Virus record (IMG/VR): IMGVR_UViG_3300035698_017765
Span: 1-21,861 of that record
DNA from: a virus
Strand: one strand, 5' to 3'
Length of the DNA stretch: 21,861 nt
The notes under the pieces were generated by a model. That model did no database searches. It was given only the letters and a program-made list of their open reading frames with translations, and was not told where the DNA came from. Positions 2,226-16,555 of the stretch are shown piece after piece; within the stretch, counting starts at the first letter, position 1, and each line of letters begins with the position of its first letter. A program made the translations under genes and the position numbers.

Positions 2226-2440
2226 CATCAATATCGAATCAATCCGGAATAGTACAAGAATTTGTAAAGTCGTTGGGATTAGATCCTAAAAAGATTTACA
2301 AACTCACGCTTACAATTGCTGTAGGACATACTGTTCAAATTGAAACGACATCATTCGTATTTCATGATGATTTAAAAAAGACTGTAGAAGTAATTGAAAA
2401 ATATGAATTGTACGCAAAAGAAGTAGAAAAAGATGTGTGA
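2222..2440 (+). CDS. Small protein of unknown function between portal and minor head protein
   Basis: This is a 72-aa reading frame whose ATG overlaps the portal stop (ATGA), so it should be translated by reinitiation. It has no recognised domain, signal peptide or membrane segment. The sequence is soluble and mixed alpha/beta in character: a short N-terminal helix-like part (GIVQEFVKSLGLDPKK), a beta-like middle (IYKLTLTIAVGHTVQIETTS) and a charged helix-like end. It overlaps the following gene by 8 bases. Its place in the head block suggests a small virion or assembly protein, but that is inference from context. Confidence 0.7.
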   Translation: MTSISNQSGIVQEFVKSLGLDPKKIYKLTLTIAVGHTVQIETTSFVFHDDLKKTVEVIEKYELYAKEVEKDV

Positions 2441-3869
2441 TATTTGTGGAACATATAACCATATGGTGCCCTTGACTAATGTCCAGATAAATGCTTATGA
2501 TCCTACGCACACGACTACGCTGAGAAATGCGTTTGTGCGTGATATGAATAGAAGGTTCCGGGAATTAACTAAGGTTATTAAACAAACTATTGTAGATAAG
2601 GATTGTTTTGGGTTATCTACTGAGACTTACCAAATGGAACCTTCAGGGCATAGGGCATTTGATTTCCCAAGGACCTCAGATAAGATAGATGGTTTCATGG
2701 AGTGGTTAAATGAACAAGTAGATAAAGGAATTTTAGAATATCGATATGCAGCAAGAATAGGAGATTCAATTGAGGCTGCATGGACAAACATATATATTTA
2801 TGACTCATATAAAAGAGGAGTTATTAGAGCGAGGTACGAACTCAATAAAGCTGGGTATGATGTACCCACTGTCCCACAGTCAGGAGGGATTAGTGCTGTC
2901 TTATCAGCTCCGTTTCACGTTGACCGGGTTGGCTACTTATACACTCGTGTATTCTCAGATTTAAAAGGAATCACAAAGGCAATGGATACCCAAATAAGTC
3001 GTGTATTAGGACAAGGACTTGTGGATGGTGATAATCCATTACTTCTTGCACGGAAGCTCATGTCTACCATTAATGGAAGTGGTATGGGAGAATTAGGGAT
3101 TACGGATACACTAGGGAGATTTATTCCTGCTAAACGTAGAGCACAGATGCTTGCACGGACTGAAATAATTAGAGCACATCATGCAGCCAATATGCAGGAA
3201 TATAAGAATTGGGGGGCAGAGGGGATTTCGGTTATAGCCGAGTTTGTTACTGCAGGAGACTCACGAGTATGTCCAGAATGCGCTGGTTATCATGGGAATA
3301 GGTATAGTTTAGAGGAAGCGGAGTGGATGATTCCCGTCCACCCAAATTGCTTTATTACACCACAAATTCCAATATATACTTCTAAGGGTTGGAAGCATAT
3401 TGGGGACATTAAAGTTGGTGATATGGTGTTGACACATAAGCATAGGTTTAGAAAAGTCACAGAATTAATTAGAACAGCCAAGCAATCTCCAAATGTTGTT
3501 AAGTTTAAGATGAAAGGTAATATGCACCTGACAATGACGGAGGGCCATCCTGTTCTTGTACTTCAGGAGTATGATAGTATTCCTTCTTGGAAATTAGCAA
3601 AAAATTGCACTTTGGATGATTGGATTGTACTATTAGAGAATGAACAAAGTTCTATTCCTTGTAAGATTGAGTCCATTAAAACATGGAAAGTTGCAAAACC
3701 AAAAATGCTTTATAATTTTAGTGTAGAAGAGGATGAATCTTATATAGCAAAAGGAATGGTGGTTCATAATTGCCGGTGTATTGTAATTCCAGTATCCTCT
3801 ACAAATACAAGAGCACGAAGGTGGAATGATTTAGATGCAGTTCAATCAGGAGAATTACCATTAATATGA
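2433..3869 (+). CDS. Mu gpF-like minor head (head morphogenesis) protein precursor, interrupted by an intein
   Basis: The product is a minor capsid/head morphogenesis protein of the Mu gpF / SPP1 gp7 family, associated with the portal during head assembly. The precursor is 478 aa. Residues ~50-300 form the head protein domain, ending in the family's cysteine signature: CPEC at 280-283 and, after splicing, HPN|CRC followed by IVIPV. Codons 306-446 are a mini-intein inserted exactly between the N and C of HPNCRC. Removing it leaves a 337-aa protein, normal for the family, with the zinc-binding-like motif restored. The ATG at 2433 overlaps the preceding gene by 8 bases; ATG 2463 (residue 11) is an alternative. 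The stop overlaps the next ATG (ATGA). Activity of the spliced or unspliced form is not known. Confidence 0.92.
   Translation: MCDICGTYNHMVPLTNVQINAYDPTHTTTLRNAFVRDMNRRFRELTKVIKQTIVDKDCFGLSTETYQMEPSGHRAFDFPRTSDKIDGFMEWLNEQVDKGILEYRYAARIGDSIEAAWTNIYIYDSYKRGVIRARYELNKAGYDVPTVPQSGGISAVLSAPFHVDRVGYLYTRVFSDLKGITKAMDTQISRVLGQGLVDGDNPLLLARKLMSTINGSGMGELGITDTLGRFIPAKRRAQMLARTEIIRAHHAANMQEYKNWGAEGISVIAEFVTAGDSRVCPECAGYHGNRYSLEEAEWMIPVHPNCFITPQIPIYTSKGWKHIGDIKVGDMVLTHKHRFRKVTELIRTAKQSPNVVKFKMKGNMHLTMTEGHPVLVLQEYDSIPSWKLAKNCTLDDWIVLLENEQSSIPCKIESIKTWKVAKPKMLYNFSVEEDESYIAKGMVVHNCRCIVIPVSSTNTRARRWNDLDAVQSGELPLI
3348..3770 (+). other. Mini-intein (Hint domain, 141 aa) within the minor head protein gene
   Basis: The block begins with Cys1 (codon 306, CFITPQIPIYTSKGW) and the N-terminal splicing pattern 'IGDIKVGDMVLT'. 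Block B is TEGHPV, giving the conserved T-x-x-H at intein residues 64-67. The C-terminal blocks read LYNFSVEEDESYIAKG and then MVVHN, ending in His140-Asn141, followed by Cys+1 of the extein. These are all the catalytic positions of a class 1 intein: Cys1, block B Thr/His, penultimate His, terminal Asn, +1 Cys. At 141 aa there is no room for a homing endonuclease, so it is a mini-intein. A non-splicing Hint domain is less likely because excision precisely restores the HPNCRC motif of the gpF family. Confidence 0.92.
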
Positions 3870-4576
3870 CAATAACAATACCATATTATAACAATCCTAA
3901 GATGCTTGAAAAGCAGATGGAGTATTGGTCTGTTTATCCAAGGGGGGTTTGGAAGAACTTAAAGGTAATTATTGTAGATGATGGTAGTAAGTATCCTGCA
4001 AAGGATGTATTAACAGGGGAACTTCCTTTAGATATTGAATTATATCGGATACGGGAGAACATTCCCTGGAACCATGGAGGTGCAAGAAACTTAGCTTTTT
4101 ATCAAGCAGACCCTGGCTGGTGTATAATGACGGATATGGATCATTGTATTCCCGCAGAGAGTTTAAAAGTGTTATTAAAAAAAGAATTGAATCCAAATAG
4201 AGCGTATTTGATGGCTCGAAAAGAACGAATGCTTGACAGCTCGTTAATGCCCTTAGGGAGGCATATTGATAGTTACATACTGACACGGGAGTTATATTGG
4301 AAAATAGGGGGGTTTAACGAAGATTTCAGCGGGTATTGGAATGGAGTAAGTAGATTGTTTCGTAAGCAACTCGGAAAACCACAAATATTAGAAGATGTTT
4401 TCTTACATCGGTATAATAGTAATGTAGTAAAAGATGCGAATGTATCTGAGTGGGGAAGAGGTGGAAGTGAGTATGATATTAAGAATAATAAGGAATTGTT
4501 TGTAAGGTTTAATAAGCAATTAAGAAAATATACTCCAGAGAAATCATTAAGGTTTTCTTGGGGAAGAGAGATATGA
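3866..4576 (+). CDS. GT2-like glycosyltransferase (GT-A fold)
   Basis: A 236-aa cytoplasmic, soluble enzyme predicted to transfer a sugar from a nucleotide-sugar donor. It opens with a TITIPYYNNPKML strand/loop typical of family 2 enzymes, followed by VIIVDDGS at 34-41 (nucleotide-binding), NHGGARNLAF (69-78), the metal-binding D-x-D at 90-92 (TDMDH), and GGFNEDFSGYW at 148-158. That last motif resembles the 'GGFDEDF' acceptor motif of galactosyltransferase-type enzymes. There is no membrane segment. Its ATG overlaps the minor head stop and its stop overlaps the next ATG, so it is embedded in the head operon with a methyltransferase as partner. Donor and acceptor cannot be read from the sequence. 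Confidence 0.85.
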   Translation: MTITIPYYNNPKMLEKQMEYWSVYPRGVWKNLKVIIVDDGSKYPAKDVLTGELPLDIELYRIRENIPWNHGGARNLAFYQADPGWCIMTDMDHCIPAESLKVLLKKELNPNRAYLMARKERMLDSSLMPLGRHIDSYILTRELYWKIGGFNEDFSGYWNGVSRLFRKQLGKPQILEDVFLHRYNSNVVKDANVSEWGRGGSEYDIKNNKELFVRFNKQLRKYTPEKSLRFSWGREI

Positions 4577-5217
4577 AAGAATTAAAAGACATACCAGCAA
4601 TGACTCCACCTGCGGTTCACGAGTATCTCGTTGGAATCGGGAATGAGTGGAGTGGGCGCGGAGTAGCAATGGAACTAGGATGTTGGTTAGGAGCCTCATC
4701 TGCCCCATTGCTACACGGGCTGGTACAGGCAGGATATAATAGAAAGTTTTGGGCATTTGATCGATGGCAAGCCAATAAAGGGCAGGTGGAGAAAGCAAAA
4801 GAATTTGGAGTGGTTTTAGAGGATGGTCAAAATACCTTACCTATTTATAAGAAAAATATAGATTCAATTTATGAAGATGCTGTATTTGTAAGGGGCGAAT
4901 TACCATTTGGGTTGCGTTATTTTAAACAAAGAAGTGAACCTATTGAAATTTTGATATTGGATGCACCTAAGCGAAATGAAATATTTGGTAAGTGTATAAA
5001 GGAATTACTTCCATATTGTATTCCGGGAGTAACAATAATTGGATTTTTAGATTACTATTTTTACAATAGGCATAATGAGGATGCACGGTTTAAAGCACCT
5101 ATAGATTTAATAGAACAAAATAGAGATAATTTTACTTTACTAAACCATTGGCCTGAGGAGTGTACTTGTGCATTTTTTAGGTATGAAAAAGAATTGATAT
5201 GGAAACAGCAGAATTAA
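4573..5217 (+). CDS. Class I SAM-dependent methyltransferase-like protein (TylF/Methyltransf_24-like)
   Basis: A 214-aa protein from the ATG at 4573, which overlaps the preceding stop as ATGA; an in-frame TTG at 4558 is less likely. It carries a SAM-binding motif I-like ELGCWLGASS (34-43), an acidic strand end FWAFDRW (59-65), and a late ILILDAPKR / YCIPGVTIIGFLDYY pattern resembling O-methyltransferases related to TylF/MycF and the Methyltransf_24 family. Paired with the GT2-like gene, it may methylate a sugar or a protein-linked glycan. The motif I glycine pattern is somewhat degenerate, so the catalytic call is moderate. It overlaps the protease gene by 19 bases. Confidence 0.7.
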   Translation: MKELKDIPAMTPPAVHEYLVGIGNEWSGRGVAMELGCWLGASSAPLLHGLVQAGYNRKFWAFDRWQANKGQVEKAKEFGVVLEDGQNTLPIYKKNIDSIYEDAVFVRGELPFGLRYFKQRSEPIEILILDAPKRNEIFGKCIKELLPYCIPGVTIIGFLDYYFYNRHNEDARFKAPIDLIEQNRDNFTLLNHWPEECTCAFFRYEKELIWKQQN

Positions 5218-6660: not shown

Positions 6661-7143
6661 ATGGCACAAAATTCAATTAGAGTTAAAAATTATCTCAATG
6701 TTGAGGAGGAATTGGTAGCAGTAGCTGGCATTACACCGGGAATGTTGATAGAAGAAACTGCTGCAGGGGAAGTGCAAGTGCACTCAACTTCTGGTGGAAA
6801 TGCAATTCCAATGTTTGCATTGGAAAATGAACTTGAGGGACAAGGCATTACAGATGCTTATGAAGCAGATGATCCTGTACAATGTTGGTTTCCACAGCGC
6901 GGAGATCAAGTATATGCTTATTTAGCAGGTGATGAAACAGCGGTTATTGGAGACTTTTTAGAGTCCGATGGTGCAGGTTCATTAAAAGTACACGTTGCGG
7001 ATGTAGAATCTTTTGAATCTGCTGAAGCGGGATCAATCACAGTGTATCCATTACAAATTGTTGGACAAGCAATGGAAGCTGTTGATTTGAGTGATTCTGA
7101 TAACTTGTCAGCAATTGGCAGAATAATCATTAGAATAGTTTAA
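6661..7143 (+). CDS. Head decoration / capsid cement protein
   Basis: A 160-aa protein immediately upstream of the major capsid gene. It has an acidic, beta-rich composition (LVAVAGITPGMLIEET, AGEVQVHSTSGG, GDQVYAYLAGDETAVIGDFL), as in small decoration/stabilisation proteins that sit on the capsid lattice. The spaced glycine turns and the 'ITPGMLIE' start resemble capsid-cement proteins encoded just before major capsid genes in siphoviruses. It has the same strong SD module as the capsid gene, as expected for a protein needed in hundreds of copies. It has no Lys-rich or membrane features. It could be a plausible carrier for the glycan made by the neighbouring sugar genes, but the sequence does not show this. 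Confidence 0.7.
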   Translation: MAQNSIRVKNYLNVEEELVAVAGITPGMLIEETAAGEVQVHSTSGGNAIPMFALENELEGQGITDAYEADDPVQCWFPQRGDQVYAYLAGDETAVIGDFLESDGAGSLKVHVADVESFESAEAGSITVYPLQIVGQAMEAVDLSDSDNLSAIGRIIIRIV

Positions 7144-8295: not shown

Positions 8296-8637
8296 ATGGA
8301 ACGTACAGCAAAAAGTAAAGTAATTAAGTGGCAAAAAACAGGTGGTGGTTCTTTCCGTATGGGAAATAAGAAGCTAATTAAACCTGGACAAATATTTAGT
8401 GCAACTATAGAAGAAATCCCAATAGCATTTAGGGATGTTGTAAAACCGGTAGATGGAAAAGATGTATTGGTTACAGTTGATGCTGCTGCCCTTATTAAAA
8501 CGGCACCAGAATTAAAATACTATGTCAAGCATGTGAATAGTGGTTGGTATAATGTAGAAGATGTCAATGGAAAAGTAATGAATGATAAGAAGCTAAGGCA
8601 AGAGGCAGCTGAGGGTCTTTTAAAGTCATTACAATAA
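8296..8637 (+). CDS. Small conserved-context protein after major capsid gene, function unknown
   Basis: A 113-aa protein, basic overall, with the stretches KLIKPGQIFSATIEEIPIAF and YYVKHVNSGWYNVEDVNGKV, the latter reading like a small beta domain that packs aromatic residues. The C-terminal 20 residues are likely helical (KLRQEAAEGLLKSLQ). I recognise no named domain. Its strong SD, shared with the tail tube gene, and its position right after the capsid gene suggest a virion component such as a second decoration or connector-associated protein. That is inference. Its TAA shares one base with the ATG of the first gene in the large sugar cassette (TAATG), so the cassette is coupled to it. Confidence 0.75.
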   Translation: MERTAKSKVIKWQKTGGGSFRMGNKKLIKPGQIFSATIEEIPIAFRDVVKPVDGKDVLVTVDAAALIKTAPELKYYVKHVNSGWYNVEDVNGKVMNDKKLRQEAAEGLLKSLQ

Positions 8638-9338
8638 TGGATTGGCAGATTCCCAAAATGTGGGAAGATGGAGAGTGTTGGATTTTAGGTGGTGGGCCAA
8701 GTTTGTCTCACCAATTTAATATTCCAGAGGACACTATCCAACGAGTACTGAACAGGGAGGAATCCCCATCAGTGTACTCTCCATATCTTTCTGCCCTTCA
8801 TACAAAGCATGTAATAGCCGTAAATGCGGCTTATTTATTAGGTGATTGGATGGATATCATATTTTTTGGGGATGCTAATTTTTATCGGACGAATAGAAAG
8901 CAGTTATTATTTTATCCAAAACTTAAAGTTACTTGTAATTCTAAATTGAAACAATATACTAAGGCAGGAGAAATCAAATGTGTCGCTCGGGATAATAACA
9001 AACCGCATGGTTTAACTATAAGAAAAGGACATGTTAGTTGGAACGGCAATAGTGGAGCAGCCGCAATTAATTTAGCAGTTCAGTTAGGTGCGAAGAAAAT
9101 AATACTTTTAGGGTTCGATATGGAGTGTACAGAGGGAATGCAACATTGGCACAGTCATTATAAGCCAAAAGGACAACCAAACATGAAGGAGCTCCGGAAA
9201 TTGCCGTTTCACAGGCATATAAAATGTTTTGAACATGTTGCTAAAGATGCTAAACGGTTAGGAGTGGAGATTTTAAATGTTTCTCCACATAGTCAAATTA
9301 AAGAAATTAAGAAAGTACAAATCCAAGATGTGTTATGA
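8637..9338 (+). CDS. DUF115 / Maf-like putative glycosyltransferase (sialyltransferase-related Rossmann fold)
   Basis: A 233-aa soluble protein. It has WILGGGPSL (15-23), the glycine loop seen in DUF115/MAF_flag10 and Cst-type sialyltransferase-like proteins; IAVNAAYLLGDWMDIIFFGD (60-79), where this fold places its nucleotide-binding strand; and NSGAAAINLAVQLGAKK (138-154) then IILLGFDM (155-162), the most recognisable block of the family. His170, His172 and His174 lie in a QHWHSHY cluster that could be catalytic. Maf proteins transfer nonulosonic acids to flagellin in some bacteria; whether this one does is unknown. It is the first gene of the nine-gene sugar cassette, coupled to the small head-block gene upstream and, by ATGA, to the methyltransferase downstream. 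Confidence 0.7.
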   Translation: MDWQIPKMWEDGECWILGGGPSLSHQFNIPEDTIQRVLNREESPSVYSPYLSALHTKHVIAVNAAYLLGDWMDIIFFGDANFYRTNRKQLLFYPKLKVTCNSKLKQYTKAGEIKCVARDNNKPHGLTIRKGHVSWNGNSGAAAINLAVQLGAKKIILLGFDMECTEGMQHWHSHYKPKGQPNMKELRKLPFHRHIKCFEHVAKDAKRLGVEILNVSPHSQIKEIKKVQIQDVL

Positions 9339-9877
9339 AACGAAGACAAAAACAGAGAAGGAGAAGATGGAATTGGATTTCAGAACAAATACTGAAACAT
9401 GGATTTACCAAAGGAGCTGAGATAGGTTGCCATAAAGGAAACACTACTAGTTATGTTTTACAATATTGTCCTGAGGTTCATCTTATAGCAGTTGATTTAT
9501 GGGCATTCCTTCCGGAAGTATATTGTCCTAGAGAATTGACGTTAAGAACGAATGAAAATCAGGATGCTATATTCAATATTTTTAAAAAGAAAGTAGAACC
9601 ATATAAGAAACGATTACAAATATTACGAGGTGTTAGTTGGGAAATGGCTAATCTGGTTCCTGATGAATCCCTGGATTTTATATTCATCGATGCAGATCAT
9701 GGATATGAAAATGTAAAGAAAGATATTATTGCTTGGGTACCTAAAGTGAAAAAAGGTGGTTTAATTTGTGGACATGATATTAATATTTCAGGAGTTTATC
9801 AAGCAGTACAAGAATTAATTATTGATAGTAAAGCAGCGGGAACTGATGTAATATGGTACACATGGAAGAGTTTATAA
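9335..9877 (+). CDS. Class I SAM-dependent methyltransferase (Methyltransf_24-like)
   Basis: A 180-aa protein with a very basic N-terminus (MKRRQKQRRRRW). SAM-binding motif I is GAEIGCHKGNTT (27-38), motif II ends in VDLW (53-56), and FIFIDADHGYENV (115-127) followed by WVPKVKKGGLICGHD (134-148) is the Methyltransf_24 signature, in which the Asp residues (119, 121, 148) often bind a metal for O-methyl transfer. It is ATGA-coupled to the preceding gene. Likely substrate by context: a sugar hydroxyl on the glycan built by its neighbours. The poly-Arg start is unusual and might bind nucleic acid or an acidic glycan, but this is speculative. Confidence 0.82.
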   Translation: MKRRQKQRRRRWNWISEQILKHGFTKGAEIGCHKGNTTSYVLQYCPEVHLIAVDLWAFLPEVYCPRELTLRTNENQDAIFNIFKKKVEPYKKRLQILRGVSWEMANLVPDESLDFIFIDADHGYENVKKDIIAWVPKVKKGGLICGHDINISGVYQAVQELIIDSKAAGTDVIWYTWKSL

Positions 9878-10509
9878 AAGGGAAAAGTGTTGCATTTGTA
9901 GGTATGGCACCTACAATAGTAGGCAAAGGATTTGGAGAACGAATAGACTCCTTTGATGTGGTTATTCGTACCAATGTATTTCCGATACCAGAAAACTATG
10001 TTAAAGACTACGGAAAGAAGTGTGATATTCTGTCTTTGCATAAAGATTTTACAGTCAATCCTGGTATTTTTGCAGATGGCGGAATAAAATGGGTTATCCA
10101 TTATATTAAAGTAAATGAGTCTCCACGACTGAATTATTATTACATGACTCTGGAAAAAAGAAATGCAATATCAAAGGATATTTTTAAAATTGTAGGTAAA
10201 GCTCCTGGGCGTGGAACAGCTGGAATAAACATTATAAATTTAGTACTTAAATATAGTCCTAAAATGTTCACTATTTTTGGTGTAACAGGGTACCAAGATA
10301 AGGATGGGAATATAATCGATCATAACAAAGGAACAATACATTATATTGATGGTGCTGGACCTAGCATTGATATTGATGGTCCTAAAAAAGTGCAGTCACT
10401 TGAAAATCATGGTTCACATAGATTTCTTGTACAAAATGATTATATCAGGCATTTACTTAAAACAGGTGAAATAGGAATGGATGAATTTTCATTTCAATAT
10501 TTTAAATAG
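9853..10509 (+). CDS. GT29-like sialyltransferase homologue
   Basis: A 218-aa protein. Residues 12-41 read SVAFVGMAPTIVGKGFGE then RIDSFDVVIRTN, which follows the large sialylmotif of family GT29 (VGNS..l.GSG.G..ID..d.ViR.N). The second block, GRGTAGINIINLVLKYSP then FTIFGVTGY, matches the small sialylmotif position, and QSLENHGSHRF fits the very-small motif with its His. It lacks the membrane anchor of eukaryotic enzymes. The likely donor is a CMP-activated nonulosonic acid or related sugar, but that is family knowledge only. It overlaps the preceding gene by 25 bases; ATG 9862 (residue 4) is an alternative start. There is no clear SD. Confidence 0.72.
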   Translation: MVHMEEFIKGKSVAFVGMAPTIVGKGFGERIDSFDVVIRTNVFPIPENYVKDYGKKCDILSLHKDFTVNPGIFADGGIKWVIHYIKVNESPRLNYYYMTLEKRNAISKDIFKIVGKAPGRGTAGINIINLVLKYSPKMFTIFGVTGYQDKDGNIIDHNKGTIHYIDGAGPSIDIDGPKKVQSLENHGSHRFLVQNDYIRHLLKTGEIGMDEFSFQYFK

Positions 10510-10515
10510 AATAAT

Positions 10516-11205
10516 ATGAAGGAAAAAGTAAATATAATATGTCTTTATTGGGTAGGTGAATTTCGTGGTAGAAATTTTACAGAAAATGATGTATGGCGGT
10601 TACATCAAACGGTTAGTAAACATATTGATAGGGATTTTGATTTCTACGTACTTACCAATGATTTAAAAGCAGAACTTCCAGGCACAAGTATTCCACTAAT
10701 AAATCCAGAGGAATGGCCCGGATGGTGGAGTAAGATGGATTTACATCGTACTGACTTACCTGCAGGGAGAACATTGTATTTAGATTTGGATTCTCATGTG
10801 ATTCGTTCACTTCAACCAATATTAGATACTCCTGGAGATTTAGTAATGTTTCCAAGTCGGATGAGTGGGTCTAGTGGAGGGATTGTTTCACGATACCAAG
10901 CAGCTACTATGTTGTTTGATCCAGGAGAGATGGAGAGAAAATACCAATTGTTTTCCAAATTTCAGAGAGATGATGATTATTGGATGGCACATTATCGTAG
11001 TGAACAAGATATTATGGGAGAGTGGATTCCGGATCAACCTACATTTTTAGATAAGTGGTTGATGAAAGCAAGGTTAATAAAGAGAACAAGACCATACAGA
11101 AAACATCCTCCAAAGGATGTAATAATAATAACAGGACAGCCAAAGAATAATTTTTTTAGGGAACATTCAAATTTTCCTTGGTTAGAACAAATGGCAAGAG
11201 GATGA
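10516..11205 (+). CDS. GT8-like glycosyltransferase, first of a tandem pair
   Basis: A 229-aa protein starting with IICLYWVGEFRGRNF, then FYVLTND (44-49), WPGWWSKMDLHR (67-78) and TLYLDLDSHVIRSL (86-99), with the metal-binding D-x-D at 90-92. This order of strand, acceptor segment and D-x-D is that of GT-A fold, GT8-type enzymes. The C-terminal third (SEQDIMGEWIPDQPTFLDKW) is where the catalytic acceptor loop would sit. It shares a start pattern (IIC-x-YW-x-G) and D-x-D placement with the next gene, so the two may have come from duplication, though they are now very different. It sits 6 bases after the GT29-like gene and is ATGA-coupled to the next. Confidence 0.75.
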   Translation: MKEKVNIICLYWVGEFRGRNFTENDVWRLHQTVSKHIDRDFDFYVLTNDLKAELPGTSIPLINPEEWPGWWSKMDLHRTDLPAGRTLYLDLDSHVIRSLQPILDTPGDLVMFPSRMSGSSGGIVSRYQAATMLFDPGEMERKYQLFSKFQRDDDYWMAHYRSEQDIMGEWIPDQPTFLDKWLMKARLIKRTRPYRKHPPKDVIIITGQPKNNFFREHSNFPWLEQMARG

Positions 11206-11933
11206 AAGTAATATGTTTTTATTGGAAAGGGGATAGATGGAAGTCGGTGAATAAACCTACTCTCAGGTACAATAATTTGATTGAACGTGTGGGTACTGTG
11301 GATGATACTCTTGCTGCTGAATATATTAATAACTTATACAAAGGAGTTCGGAGAAATACAACACTTAAATTTGAATTTATTTGTTTTACTAATGAGAAAT
11401 TGGACTTACATAAAAATATTACAATTCGTCCTTTCAAGATGGTTACTAACATGGGAGTTCTTCCCAGGATGTATATGTTTAGTGAAGAAGCTGGTTTATT
11501 TGGACATCAAGTTCTTTGTTTAGATATCGATATTGTGATTGTAGGTAATATGGATGATATTCTCCAATATGAAGGAACGTTTTGTGCCCGGAGTAAATTC
11601 ATGCCAGGGCAAGAATATAAATTGGATGGTGATATAATGAGTTTTAAGGCAGATAAGGAAAATGAAGAACGGTTTTGGGATCCATTGAATATTGAACCTG
11701 AGACTGTGGAAGAAATGACGGATGGGCGAGAACGATATTGGGTGCGTCATGTAATAGGTGATTTGGCCGAGCGGTGGGATATTGTATTACCTGGACAAGT
11801 AGTGAGTTATAAAAAGCATGTTCTTAAAAAAAAGAGAATTCCATTTGGAGCACGAATTGTTTCTTGTCATGGACATCCTAGACCTCATCAAGCTATTCAA
11901 TATAATATAAACAATATATGGAAAGGGAAATAA
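11202..11933 (+). CDS. GT8-like glycosyltransferase, second of a tandem pair
   Basis: A 243-aa protein from ATG 11202, which overlaps the preceding stop; a TTG 24 bases upstream is a less likely start. MKVICFYWKGD opens the protein, FEFICFTNE follows (57-65), and VLCLDIDIVIVGNMDDIL (104-121) holds the D-x-D at 108-110 with the conserved 'G..DD' after it. The C-terminal part ends in SCHGHPRPHQ, a His-rich loop often present in GT8-like phage and bacterial enzymes. It probably transfers a hexose or similar sugar from a nucleotide-sugar donor. It overlaps the cupin gene by 16 bases. Confidence 0.78.
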   Translation: MKVICFYWKGDRWKSVNKPTLRYNNLIERVGTVDDTLAAEYINNLYKGVRRNTTLKFEFICFTNEKLDLHKNITIRPFKMVTNMGVLPRMYMFSEEAGLFGHQVLCLDIDIVIVGNMDDILQYEGTFCARSKFMPGQEYKLDGDIMSFKADKENEERFWDPLNIEPETVEEMTDGRERYWVRHVIGDLAERWDIVLPGQVVSYKKHVLKKKRIPFGARIVSCHGHPRPHQAIQYNINNIWKGK

Positions 11934-12259
11934 AAGTATGGGGTGAGCGGTGGTTAATCCGGAAGGATTCCACACATGCTGTTTCTTATTTAAAAATTAG
12001 GAAAGGATATCGATGTAGTTGGCATAATCATCAAACTAAGTATAATTTGTTTGTTGTCATTAAAGGTACGTTGGGTATAATTGTAGAGGAGCTCGGTAAG
12101 AAGCGCAAAATTGAACTTAAGCAAGGAGAATGTCTTACCATACCACCAGGACAGTTTCATGAGTTCTATGGGGCTACAAAGTGCCAATGTATAGAGGAAA
12201 TGTATGTAGAGTATGATGAATCAGATATAAATAGAATAAAAGTAGGGGGTCATGTATAA
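11918..12259 (+). CDS. Small cupin-domain protein
   Basis: A 113-aa single-domain cupin. Motif 1 is GYRCSWHNHQTKYNLFVVIKG (residues 30-50) with H36-x-H38, and motif 2 is CLTIPPGQFHEF (72-83) with H81, giving three His as possible metal ligands. The motif 1 Glu usual in cupins is replaced by a Lys-Tyr segment. Sugar-nucleotide 3,4-ketoisomerases, epimerases and phosphomannose-isomerase-type cupins share this fold, so a sugar-modifying role fits its place between glycosyltransferases. A binding-only role is equally possible. It overlaps both neighbours (16 and 8 bases). Confidence 0.8.
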   Translation: MEREIKVWGERWLIRKDSTHAVSYLKIRKGYRCSWHNHQTKYNLFVVIKGTLGIIVEELGKKRKIELKQGECLTIPPGQFHEFYGATKCQCIEEMYVEYDESDINRIKVGGHV

Positions 12260-13157
12260 ATTAATAGCGCATAAGGCATCTTTTGGTAATTGTGTTGGTT
12301 TGTATAATTCATTAGTTCTAAGTGGAAAAACAGCTGTCTTTTTTAAAACGGAAGATGGAAAAAGAATGGCATCACAAATTCCACATGCATTAGGTTATAA
12401 ATTAGCGATTTTTAAAAAGAAGACAGATGAAGATATTCATTATTTTATTGTAGCAGCGGTTACTTTAGAAGCAATTGATAAAAAATTTCCTATGGTATTA
12501 AAGGATCCAAAGAAAGTGACTATTATTTTGACAGACACTTCTTATAGGAGGCATACAGAATCTGTTAATAAAAGAATTAAAGGTATGAATATTTATTGCA
12601 TGTCTGATTTAAGTCAGTATTGCCCACACCCTCATAAAATATATTATCAACCTTTTGAATTAGGATTAAAAAATAACAAAAAAGCAAAGAAATTAACAAT
12701 TACACATTCTCCATATAGCGTAAATAAACGAATTCAAAAAGGAAGTAGATTTATTGAAAAGGTGCTTGATGGTATTTCTGCATATTATGTTTTTGATTAT
12801 GATTGTATAATGCTAGTTTCCTGGGAAGAATCCATTAGAAGAAAAAGTAAATCTCATATTTTTATTGATCAGGTATTATCCGCAGATGAACGCGGATGGA
12901 TAGGAGGTATTGGTAAATCTGGAATAGAAGCAATGGCGGCTGGATGTTTAACAATTACATCAGGTAATCTTTCTTATGGAAATGTCATTCCACAATGCCC
13001 TGTTGTGTTAGTTACTCCGGAAACTTTAGAAGAGACTGTAAGATATTACATTACACATCCTATTGACAGGGAGAAAAAAGCTAAGGAACAAAAATTATGG
13101 GTAGATACTTATTTGAATTATGAATACCAATCAAAATATTTAACCAATGAAATCTAA
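12252..13157 (+). CDS. GT-B fold glycosyltransferase (GT1/GT4-like C-terminal domain)
   Basis: A 301-aa protein. The C-terminal half holds GGIGKSGIEAMAAGCLTITSG (218-238), the donor-nucleotide-binding E-x(n)-G pattern of GT-B enzymes ('G.s..EAmA.G...I.s'), followed by VVLVTPETLEETVRYYI (253-269), the typical closing helix. An earlier THSPYSVNKRIQKGS (151-165) is where the second Rossmann domain would start. The N-terminal half is less recognisable: MYKLIAHKASFGNCVGLYNSL. The gene is AT-rich with many Lys and Ile codons, more so than the capsid genes. It overlaps the cupin gene by 8 bases and the next methyltransferase by 11. Confidence 0.75.
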   Translation: MYKLIAHKASFGNCVGLYNSLVLSGKTAVFFKTEDGKRMASQIPHALGYKLAIFKKKTDEDIHYFIVAAVTLEAIDKKFPMVLKDPKKVTIILTDTSYRRHTESVNKRIKGMNIYCMSDLSQYCPHPHKIYYQPFELGLKNNKKAKKLTITHSPYSVNKRIQKGSRFIEKVLDGISAYYVFDYDCIMLVSWEESIRRKSKSHIFIDQVLSADERGWIGGIGKSGIEAMAAGCLTITSGNLSYGNVIPQCPVVLVTPETLEETVRYYITHPIDREKKAKEQKLWVDTYLNYEYQSKYLTNEI

Positions 13158-13752
13158 ATACGAAAAAATATATAATACTCCTATTTCTAGGATGAAAGTG
13201 GATAAATCCTGGGAACGGTATTTCAAACCAACTGACCGTAAGAATCAAATGCCATTACGTTATTCTTTTTCGGTATCTAAATTATACGGGAATGTATTGG
13301 ACGTGGGAGCCGGGGATGGGTTTGGTGCATACCTAATGAGTAAAAATAAAAAGATAACTCATATCACTTGTTTAGAAATACAGGATAAAGCGATTGTACA
13401 GATTATTAAGAATACAAAAGGAATTGACAATATTACAATAATTAAATCAGCGGCAGAATGTTTTAAAACAGATCAGATGTTTGATTGTGTTCATTGTGGC
13501 CATACCCTAGAACACGTTTTGGATCCTATTAAAACATTGAAAATGATAGAATCAGTTACTAAAGATTTAGCAGTGATTTCAGTTCCAATTCATGGGGGGA
13601 TTAATAGGATGCATCTTTGGGAATATCATTCAATGCAAGAGGTAAAAAATTTGGTAGGAAAATACTTTGAAATTCTACAGACAAAAATGTATGCGAAGAA
13701 TAGTAAAGTTTCTTCTGCAGTAATAGTAGGAAGAAAAATTGATAAATTATGA
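13147..13752 (+). CDS. Class I SAM-dependent methyltransferase (Methyltransf_11/23-like)
   Basis: A 201-aa protein with a canonical SAM-binding motif I, VLDVGAGDGFGAYLM (50-64), an acidic motif II end CLEIQ (75-79), and FDCVHCGHTLEHVLDP (112-127), which carries the 'HtLEHv.dp' signature of the Methyltransf_11/23 group. IHGGINRMHLWEYHSMQEV is the usual post-motif region of small sugar/lipid methyltransferases. It is the third methyltransferase in the window and belongs to a different subfamily from the other two. It is ATGA-coupled to the sulfotransferase. The target is unknown; a sugar is likely from context. Confidence 0.85.
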   Translation: MKSKYEKIYNTPISRMKVDKSWERYFKPTDRKNQMPLRYSFSVSKLYGNVLDVGAGDGFGAYLMSKNKKITHITCLEIQDKAIVQIIKNTKGIDNITIIKSAAECFKTDQMFDCVHCGHTLEHVLDPIKTLKMIESVTKDLAVISVPIHGGINRMHLWEYHSMQEVKNLVGKYFEILQTKMYAKNSKVSSAVIVGRKIDKL

Positions 13753-14453
13753 AAGCACCTATTTTAATTACTGGATGTGCGAGAAGTGGGACTAGTATGG
13801 TTGCCGGGATTATAAATATCTGTGGTGCCTTTGGTGGAGAGATGTCGGGGCCTACAAAATCAAATGCTAAGGGAATGTTTGAAAATGCTAAAATCCGGAA
13901 TACCATTGTAAAGCCTTATTACCGTCAAATCGGTGTAGATCCAATGGGACAATATCCCTTACCCGATACTCAGAATCTAGTTATCCCAATTGGTTGGAGA
14001 AGTAACGTGGAATCTATTTTACGGGAAGAAGAATATCAAGATGGTGAGTGGATGTATAAGGGTGCAAAATTATGTCAACATTGGCCTATATGGAATTATG
14101 CTTTCCCGGATGCCAAGTATATTATTGTTCGAAGAAAGACAAGTGATATTATTAATTCTTGTATTCGTACTGGATTTATGAGGGCATTTCAAAATACACA
14201 TATTCAACGAAAGGTAGGAGTAAGTAGTGAATGGGATGGTTGGTTATGGTGGGTGCATCAACATGAAAACCGATTTGTAGAAATGATTCAAGCCGGTTTA
14301 AATTGTCGAATAGTTTGGCCTGATCGAATGGTGGATGAAAATTATGAACAAATGGAAGAGACTATTGAGTGGTTGGGTTTAGAATGGAAAGACAAGGAAG
14401 TGAAAGATTTCATATCTCCAAAATTGTGGAAAAGTAGACAACTTAAAAAATAG
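13749..14453 (+). CDS. Sulfotransferase family protein
   Basis: A 234-aa soluble protein. PILITGCARSGTSMVAGII (4-22) is the 5'-phosphosulfate-binding loop of PAPS-dependent sulfotransferases (xxGxxRSGTS). YIIVRRKTSDIINSCI (124-139) is the 3'-phosphate-binding segment, with Arg128/129 and a Ser. Such enzymes transfer sulfate from PAPS to carbohydrate hydroxyls. It is the last gene of the sugar cassette, ATGA-coupled to the methyltransferase, and lies 5 bases before the head-tail connector gene. With the methyltransferases it would be a capping enzyme for the glycan. A nucleotide-kinase-like P-loop role is possible but the two-motif spacing favours sulfotransferase. Confidence 0.82.
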   Translation: MKAPILITGCARSGTSMVAGIINICGAFGGEMSGPTKSNAKGMFENAKIRNTIVKPYYRQIGVDPMGQYPLPDTQNLVIPIGWRSNVESILREEEYQDGEWMYKGAKLCQHWPIWNYAFPDAKYIIVRRKTSDIINSCIRTGFMRAFQNTHIQRKVGVSSEWDGWLWWVHQHENRFVEMIQAGLNCRIVWPDRMVDENYEQMEETIEWLGLEWKDKEVKDFISPKLWKSRQLKK

Positions 14454-14458
14454 AAATT

Positions 14459-14827
14459 ATGGCAAGAACAACGTATTCAGAAGTAAATGAGATAATGAAT
14501 GGGTCTTTAACAGAAGCTAAAATTACTCCATTTATAGGAATAGCTAATGTTTTTATTACAAATCAGATGTCTGCAGTTACTTTTAGTGTGGCTCAATTAA
14601 CTGAGATGGAACGATGGCTTACAGCCCATTTAATCGCTTCTACGATTGCCAGGTTAGGGTCAACGGAAACACTTGGGGAGGCTACTATTAAATATATAGG
14701 ACAGTTTGGGAAAGGATTTGAAAGTACCCCTTATGGACAAATGCTTTTAGCACTTGATACCTCAGGTACATTTGCTGCTTTAAGTAAAAGGAATATAAAT
14801 ATAACAGCAATAACAAGTTTTGAATAA
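14459..14827 (+). CDS. Head-tail connector (adaptor) protein
   Basis: A 122-aa helical protein with the pattern 'SEVNEIMNGSLTEAKITPFI', 'ANVFITN' and 'LTEMERWLTAHLIAS' seen in small adaptor proteins that dock under the portal (HK97 gp6 / SPP1 gp15-like, DUF4054-like). It resumes the structural gene order after the sugar cassette. The start context is AGAAATTATGG with no SD. It is followed by a TAATG overlap with the closure protein gene. Confidence 0.75.
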   Translation: MARTTYSEVNEIMNGSLTEAKITPFIGIANVFITNQMSAVTFSVAQLTEMERWLTAHLIASTIARLGSTETLGEATIKYIGQFGKGFESTPYGQMLLALDTSGTFAALSKRNINITAITSFE

Positions 14828-16114: not shown

Positions 16115-16555
16115 ATGGCAAGTAATGCAGTATCAGGAGTGGGTACAACACTCTATAGATGGAATGGGTCTTCAGCTTGGGTTGCCCTGACTGAGATCAA
16201 TTCTATTTCTGGTCCGTCTAAGACCAGGGATACCATTGATGTCACTTCTTTGGACTCCACTAGTGGGTACAGGGAGTTTATCGCTGGTTTCCGTGATGCG
16301 GGCACTGTTCAATTGAACATGAATTTTACGCGTGCTTCATTTGAGGTTATGAATGATGATTTCGAAAGTGATGTTGTGCAGAACTACGAGATAGTTTTGC
16401 CGGATGATGAAAATACCACTTTTGAATTTGAAGGTTTGGTGACAGAAGTTCCGTTGGAAGTACCAATGGATGACAAAATCACTGTATCTGCAACTATTAA
16501 GATTACTGGCCCTGTTACAGTTAACAGTGGAGCAGCAAGTGCATCACCAGGATGA
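16115..16555 (+). CDS. Major tail tube protein
   Basis: A 146-aa beta-rich protein that builds the non-contractile tube. SISGPSKTRDTIDVTSLDS (residues ~30-48), GYREFIAGFRDAGTVQLNM (~51-69) and YEIVLPDDENTTFEFEG (~91-107) are the lambda gpV / TP901-type tube signature, in which 'k.d.idvt.ld...g..efi.G..d.G....' is the core. The C-terminus is a short Ala/Ser-rich tail (GAASASPG). The strong SD fits the high copy number, and no sheath gene precedes it. A hairpin follows. Confidence 0.92.
   Translation: MASNAVSGVGTTLYRWNGSSAWVALTEINSISGPSKTRDTIDVTSLDSTSGYREFIAGFRDAGTVQLNMNFTRASFEVMNDDFESDVVQNYEIVLPDDENTTFEFEGLVTEVPLEVPMDDKITVSATIKITGPVTVNSGAASASPG

Follow-up and report, generated by a model that had tools for sequence, protein, structure and literature searches.

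A head-operon gene slot in uncultivated tailed phages that may encode exchangeable, sulfate-capped virion glycosylation

Introduction

The glycosylation of virions by phage-encoded enzymes is already known. In the mycobacteriophages Che8, Corndog and Myrna, phage glycosyltransferases are proposed to glycosylate capsid and tail-tube proteins (PMC12363180 and PMC12619734, in their passages on Freeman et al. 2023), and the glycans are reported to sit at capsid and tail-tube C-termini (PMC12619734, in a passage citing Freeman et al. 2023). In bacteria, the Maf flagellin glycosyltransferases transfer nonulosonic acids, in the cytoplasm, to serine or threonine residues of a self-assembling surface protein (PMC11339370, in the part consulted). 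Here, we analyse a nine-gene cassette embedded among the head genes of IMG/VR virus record IMGVR_UViG_3300035698_017765. The window—the whole stretch of DNA that was analysed—is a complete 21.9-kb IMG/VR fragment (21,861 nucleotides) of a tailed-phage operon. A preliminary description of the window had read the cassette as a dedicated pathway that builds a branched, O-methylated and sulfated glycan during capsid assembly. We find that the cassette occupies a conserved slot whose first and last genes are nearly constant and whose interior is exchanged between related phages. The reading that we consider probable is phage-encoded, sulfate-capped, exchangeable virion glycosylation, with the cassette switched on along with the head genes.

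Results

Nine co-directional genes encode a set of sugar-related enzymes

The nine open reading frames span positions 8637–14453, all on the plus strand. They are bordered on the left by g8296, a small conserved gene following the capsid gene (8296–8637, plus strand; 125 homologues in the fetched loci), and on the right by a head-tail connector gene (14459–14827, plus strand; PHROG 302, E 9e-4). Most starts overlap the preceding stop, and the only gaps are of 6 and 5 nt; for the second GT8-like gene, an ATG at 11202 (4-nt overlap) is a better start than the TTG at 11178. The layout given in the preliminary description thus stands. Promoter-like sites are not enriched (24, versus 30.5 ± 5.3 by chance), and a search of the cassette region for long repeats found none. 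Two 11-of-12 sigma-70-like sites lie within the cupin gene (12019–12081), the total of such sites being below chance. The GC content of the slot is 34.4%, versus 39.7% in its flanks.

The cassette opens with a DUF115/MptE-like protein of sialyltransferase-like fold, the proposed first-sugar transferase (8637–9338; PHROG 4603, E 5e-36). It is followed by an S-adenosylmethionine (SAM) methyltransferase (9335–9877; Pfam Methyltransf_24, E 6.9e-18), a GT29-type, sialyltransferase-like glycosyltransferase (9853–10509; Pfam PF00777, E 2e-6), and two GT8-like glycosyltransferases (10516–11205, carrying a DxD motif, and 11202–11933; PHROG 1962, E 6e-15 and 4e-18, respectively). Next come a cupin (11918–12259; Pfam Cupin_2, E 1.6e-8, and MannoseP_isomer, E 8.9e-6, both above cut-off) that resembles the C-terminal domain of mannose-6-phosphate isomerase, a probable GT-B glycosyltransferase (12252–13157), a second SAM methyltransferase (13147–13752; Pfam Methyltransf_31/23, E 2.5e-10) and, finally, a sulfotransferase (13749–14453; Pfam Sulfotransfer_3, E 7.8e-8). 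Eight of the nine family calls made earlier are backed by at least one significant test; the ninth, GT-B, is the weakest, with a single match below cut-off (Pfam Glyco_trans_1_2, E 0.013).

The GT29 match exceeds its cut-off (27.9 bits versus 23) over a scored stretch that covers only profile positions 58–102, and no relative of this protein was found in 50,697 phage records. In the GT8-like alignment the D-x-D motif is invariant in 32 sequences, and the combined profile matches solved GT8 structures (E 1.7e-5 to 5gvv; LgtC was also matched). The sulfotransferase scores 33.3 bits against a cut-off of 27. Across 35 sequences its RSGTS loop is conserved and residues R12, S13, R128/R129 and S137 are invariant; the RSG loop and R129/S137 we take to be the binding motifs for 3'-phosphoadenosine-5'-phosphosulfate (PAPS), namely the 5'-phosphosulfate-binding (5'-PSB) loop and the Arg/Ser of the 3'-phosphate-binding (3'-PB) motif. 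No relative of the sulfotransferase was found in the same phage records or in 72,556 plasmids.

The DUF115 protein has a sialyltransferase-like fold

Against Pfam MptE-like/MAF_flag10 (PF01973), the DUF115 protein scores 27.9 bits, under the cut-off of 34.6; its nearest named family is PHROG 4603. Searches of the PDB by sequence, with profiles of DUF115 and of the border protein g8296, gave nothing significant, and so the folds of both were predicted. The DUF115 model from AlphaFold has a predicted local distance difference test score (pLDDT) of 94.8. Its best PDB match is Cst-I, a Campylobacter sialyltransferase (E 4.7e-4, probability 1.00, template modelling score 0.51), followed by MptE/HPPK and, weakly, human ST8SiaIII. 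Structure prediction had been proposed in the preliminary description as a check on its family calls, and for DUF115 it points to a sialyltransferase-like fold. In most pairs compared, the DUF115 gene is under purifying selection, with ratios of nonsynonymous to synonymous substitution rates (dN/dS) of 0.06–0.14.

Relatives of DUF115 adjoin virion genes in the unrelated phages D3, S20 and CcrColossus. Others are annotated as HdmB or "structural protein" in phages P7, Eowyn and PAJU2 (records NC_050152, LR881104 and AP009624), pointing to a wider virion-linked role of the family. The DUF115 protein of locus L005 has roughly double the usual length and groups with GT8-like proteins, which is consistent with a DUF115-GT8 fusion.

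The border protein g8296 yielded a model with mean pLDDT 83.5 and a predicted template modelling score of 0.44, and comparison of this model with known structures gave no informative fold match. Four loci encode larger cassette proteins that carry the N-terminal motif of g8296 as a fused part (L024:12525–13472, L029:12180–14297, L036:12172–13116 and L048:12493–14613), the partner in L029 being capsule-synthesis-like. These fusions suggest that g8296 is a module for docking or linked to enzymes, and not simply a structural protein.

The bracket is conserved while the interior is exchanged

Searches with the capsid protein recruited 80 viral loci and five loci from genome bins, and searches with DUF115 added more. 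The slot with both of its borders is present at the same place in 61 distinct loci, with differing contents. Among the distinct loci recruited by the capsid protein alone, DUF115 directly follows g8296 in 51 of 53. The 58 loci with DUF115 hold 365 slot genes. Not one is encoded on the minus strand, and spacing is tight, at most 10 nt for 286 of 307 neighbours. Where a sulfotransferase and more than two genes are present (APS kinase set aside), the sulfotransferase is last in 45 of 46 loci, where 8.8 would be expected; DUF115 comes first in 44 of the 46.

The number of differing genes between these two ranges from 0 to 11 (with at most 13 genes in a slot), and the interior genes fall into about a hundred clusters. 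The extent of turnover is illustrated by loci L061 and L073, whose capsid proteins are 91% identical and whose slots have only DUF115, the sulfotransferase and an APS kinase in common. Hence, the bracket and the flanks stay while the interior is exchanged between phages. The nine genes of the window, read earlier as one pathway, are accordingly not a fixed set: they are one allele of a hypervariable slot, of which the first and last members are near-constant. Interior genes shared by loci L003 and L103 are under purifying selection (dN/dS 0.06–0.17, with synonymous sites near saturation); two comparisons of divergent L061 and L073 genes gave higher ratios. Two relatives with homologous capsid genes, MaInes and Hardycor1, have no cassette, their order being capsid gene, one small gene and connector homologue. 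A near-identity search of the window in phages gave no match.

The exchanged genes include sugar-donor and sulfate-donor sub-pathways

A further 142 cassette proteins were classified by Pfam and NCBIfam. They include (i) glycosyltransferases of families GT11 (11), GT2 (9), GT9 (5) and GT47 (3), in addition to the GT8 and GT29 families also found among the differing interior genes, (ii) FkbM methyltransferases (12) and other methyltransferases, (iii) nucleotide-sugar dehydratases or epimerases (7), GDP-L-fucose synthase (4; match E 1e-121) and PseB- and PseC-type proteins (2 each), (iv) APS kinase (6), and (v) aminotransferases and radical SAM proteins.

Two coherent sub-pathways appear in these sequences. 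Firstly, all four loci with a fucose-synthase-type gene also have a GT11 fucosyltransferase (hypergeometric P 0.001). Secondly, APS kinase, the enzyme that produces the sulfate donor PAPS, occurs in six loci (Pfam E 6.6e-16; NCBIfam apsK) and adjoins a sulfotransferase in all six (permutation P 0.003). The earlier proposal, that the head operon houses a glycan pathway of its own including a sulfate step, is supported, and it gains strength because relatives carry these APS kinase and GDP-fucose synthase genes. The L073 cassette also contains alcohol-dehydrogenase-like, thiamine-dependent E1/transketolase-like and short-chain dehydrogenase genes (L073:5550–8455), possibly serving an unusual sugar.

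Ribosome-binding sites hint at low expression of the cassette

Shine-Dalgarno sites with at least five matches precede 83–95% of decoration, capsid and tail-tube-like genes; the figure for cassette genes is 10%, versus 4% for random positions. These weak sites, used here merely as a hint of low expression, fit enzymes that are made in small amounts and coupled through the overlaps of stops and starts, and they do not set the cassette apart from low-copy structural genes (portal, second connector). The genome bins that carry relatives disagree on the host, naming Bacteroidota, Spirochaetota, Deltaproteobacteria and Puniceicoccales. Strong Shine-Dalgarno sites on high-copy structural genes fit Bacteroidota poorly.

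Virion proteins are a likelier target than the host surface

The preliminary description had left two targets side by side: virion proteins and the host surface. In the latter case, the cassette would alter lipopolysaccharide, capsule or S-layer to block superinfection, as in serotype conversion. Its gene classes do resemble those of O-antigen and capsule loci, and phage glycosyltransferases that change the host serotype are known (PMC12619734, in the part consulted). However, a membrane-like segment was detected in only three of 366 cassette proteins (simple hydropathy test). Moreover, a survey of 22 contigs of 30–78 kb, with control genomes alongside, found no GtrA flippase (PF04138), no Wzx-type flippase (PF01943) and no lipid-carrier initiating transferase (PF02397), all of which were matched in the controls. 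An integrase was found in one of the 22 contigs, and the cassette is placed in the head operon rather than with lysogeny genes. Given the few membrane segments, the lack of flippase and lipid-carrier transferase, and the single integrase, export to the host surface and lysogenic conversion are disfavoured. We regard this explanation as unlikely, which leaves virion proteins as the likelier target.

An alternative that also involves the virion is direct protein modification, in which DUF115 and the sulfotransferase act on amino acids (for example, by tyrosine or serine sulfation) and the sugar enzymes are accessory. It draws on two minimal loci, L068 with only DUF115 and the sulfotransferase and L142 with the sulfotransferase alone, and on the weak best PDB match of the sulfotransferase profile, a protein-tyrosine sulfotransferase (E 0.013). 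Most loci, however, do have sugar enzymes, a coherent GDP-fucose and GT11 pathway occurs, and the DUF115 fold resembles that of a sialyltransferase. This alternative, too, seems doubtful to us.

A third possibility is DNA hypermodification, with glycosyltransferases decorating modified bases and thereby protecting the phage genome. It is known that some phage glycosyltransferase clusters target DNA (Pyle et al. 2024, cited in the consulted part of PMC12619734), and PHROG labels the Methyltransf_24 relative "DNA methyltransferase". Sulfation, FkbM-type methylation, fucose synthesis and the location in the head operon do not fit such a role, though. Thymidylate synthase was found in one of the 22 contigs and Tet/JBP in none, the control genomes likewise giving no match for the Tet/JBP family. 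DNA modification is thus less likely, and we judge it very improbable. Least probable of all is a permissive insertion site that gathers unrelated cargo without joint function: interior turnover is high and slot GC is below that of the flanks in 59 of 59 loci, but the recognisable contents are nearly all glycan related, strand, spacing and first and last gene are strict, and the genes are under purifying selection.

Two structural proteins, each with a flexible stretch rich in serine, are candidate acceptors for virion glycosylation. The head decoration protein (6661–7143, plus strand; PHROG 766, E 5e-9) has a serine-rich loop near its C-terminus. This loop holds at least two serines in 92 of 94 unique sequences from loci with DUF115, and zero and one in the two loci that lack it (Fisher P 0.0013, not corrected for relatedness). 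The product of the gene at 16115–16555 (plus strand) is a putative tail-tube-like structural protein, so called from its position and from the annotated major tail proteins of D3 and S20, to which it is homologous. Its C-terminus is rich in serine and glycine (NSGAASASPG), a feature that recurs in 32 of 41 unique homologues and is missing in both loci that lack DUF115 and in several that have it. As acceptors, the decoration loop and the tail-tube C-terminus are suggestive only.

Surrounding operon

Upstream of the slot, the operon encodes an exonuclease-like protein, portal, MuF-type head protein, GT2 glycosyltransferase, methyltransferase, DUF2213, decoration protein and major capsid protein; g8296, the cassette, the connectors, the putative tail-tube-like protein and the tape measure follow. 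The first of these genes (37–735) was initially considered a terminase (TerL_C); this is wrong, and the product resembles a 3'-5' exonuclease (DNA_pol_B_exo2/RNase_H_2) and has a tail like a zinc ribbon. The MuF-type head morphogenesis gene (2433–3869) is split by an intein/Hint-like insertion of about 140 residues (about 3345–3765; C...HNC ends), and the MuF proteins of L003 and L004 are shorter and uninterrupted.

A second, smaller glycan slot (3866–5217) sits between the MuF gene and DUF2213. It consists of the GT2 glycosyltransferase (3866–4576, plus strand; Pfam PF00535, E 3.4e-12) and its paired methyltransferase (4558–5217, plus strand; Methyltransf_24, E 7.4e-5, just under cut-off). 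The GT2 gene is retained in L002, and the methyltransferase in L002 and L004; a relative of the GT2 protein is found inside the slot of virus S20.

Discussion

Under phage-encoded, sulfate-capped virion glycosylation, the glycan-building cassette would be switched on together with the head genes. In the cytoplasm, DUF115 would link the initial sugar, probably drawn from a CMP-activated donor, to serine or threonine residues of abundant virion proteins. The exchangeable GT8, GT29, GT-B and methyltransferase genes would lengthen and methylate the chain, and the sulfotransferase, as the last enzyme, would add sulfate from PAPS, supplied by the host in this phage and by a phage APS kinase in some relatives. 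Exchange of the interior would give related phages different coats, in the manner of bacterial O-antigen loci. The coat may alter adsorption, recognition or stability of the particle. More tentatively, with chances somewhat short of even, the slot could be a "glycotype" locus, in which the initiating transferase and the terminal sulfotransferase are constant and bracket an exchanged interior, and each phage displays its own sulfated glycan.

Several points weigh against this interpretation. The DUF115 protein falls below the Pfam cut-off for MptE-like proteins, and its sugar transfer is suggested by fold alone; the sulfotransferase is missing from some members of the lineage; and the APS kinases are short, the best-scored one covering profile positions 4–97 of 152. 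The acceptor is a guess: the serine-loop correlation hangs on two negative loci, the window's own decoration loop is just moderately serine-rich (three serines), and S20 is without the tail-tube motif. The position among head genes may in part be explained by a permissive insertion site. Finally, the lineage is known from sequence alone.

If virion glycosylation of this kind is correct, environmental phage particles bear self-made, highly diverse, sulfated sugar coats, affecting views of adsorption, recognition and antigenic diversity, and a "glycotype" locus would be a phage parallel to O-antigen serotypes. It would also account for the glycosyltransferase and methyltransferase genes seen among capsid genes in metagenomes. 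DUF115 and the sulfotransferase form an anchor pair for locating such loci, and the slots are a rich source of soluble sugar enzymes that are predicted to serve one task. What had been labelled, vaguely, an "auxiliary metabolic gene" becomes a claim open to testing in the sequenced phages S20 and D3. To our knowledge, the glycan made by a "glycotype" locus would be the first known sulfated virion glycan from a prokaryotic virus. Our literature search met with neither a phage sulfotransferase reported to act on virions nor a described sulfation arm or swappable head-operon cassette, which is not proof of absence.

How does the slot compare with known systems? Serotype-conversion (gtr) cassettes are set apart by their GtrA flippase and membrane-bound transferases, and O-antigen and capsule loci by their Wzx-type flippase and lipid-carrier initiating transferase; neither flippase nor the initiating transferase was seen in the 22 contigs, and membrane-like segments, as noted, are rare in the cassette proteins. 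Maf proteins share the DUF115/MAF-type domain, whereas the window protein is short (233 residues) and below the Pfam cut-off.

Among phages, Caulobacter phage CcrColossus has a DUF115-family "alpha-2,3-sialyltransferase" followed by sugar-transferase, methyltransferase and GT9-like genes (gp126–gp131); it differs in being a jumbo phage whose genes adjoin tail rather than capsid genes, with no sulfotransferase relative detected. In Pseudomonas phage D3 (NC_002484) and its relatives, the DUF115 gene orf7 (HMM E 4e-24) is separated from the major head protein by one small gene and precedes the head-tail adaptor. Unlike in the window, it is a lone gene with no cassette there (a methyltransferase, orf13, lies further on), and the capsid is of a different type, not detected by our lineage's capsid profile. 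The DUF115 frame of orf7 (L153:4263–4907) is open well upstream of the annotated start, and the annotation is probably too short.

The statement in the preliminary description that no comparable gene set was known has to be qualified: a comparable cassette, itself undescribed, occupies the same position in Tetraselmis viridis virus S20 (S20/SI1: NC_020840, HQ632858), with capsid-side genes on one side and head closure on the other. It comprises two DUF115 genes, GT-D, GT2, FkbM and other methyltransferases, and a GT8-like last gene. S20 differs in that its capsid protein is not detected by our lineage's capsid profile and its cassette has no detectable sulfotransferase relative; we found no study of the function of its cassette.

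Chlorovirus PBCV-1 glycosylates its capsid with soluble virus enzymes, including glycosyltransferases with a methyltransferase domain, synthesizes GDP-fucose, and has glycan variants on one capsid protein; however, it is a eukaryotic virus with an unrelated capsid, and the consulted part of the source neither describes its genes as one operon slot nor mentions a sulfotransferase (PMC5408694). The mycobacteriophage systems, in the source passages cited above, are described with glycosyltransferases only, whereas the slot, known here from genes alone, adds a sulfotransferase, APS kinase, nucleotide-sugar synthesis and swapped content; what the two have in common is phage-encoded glycosyltransferases, with tail-tube C-termini as the reported sites in the former and candidate sites in the latter.

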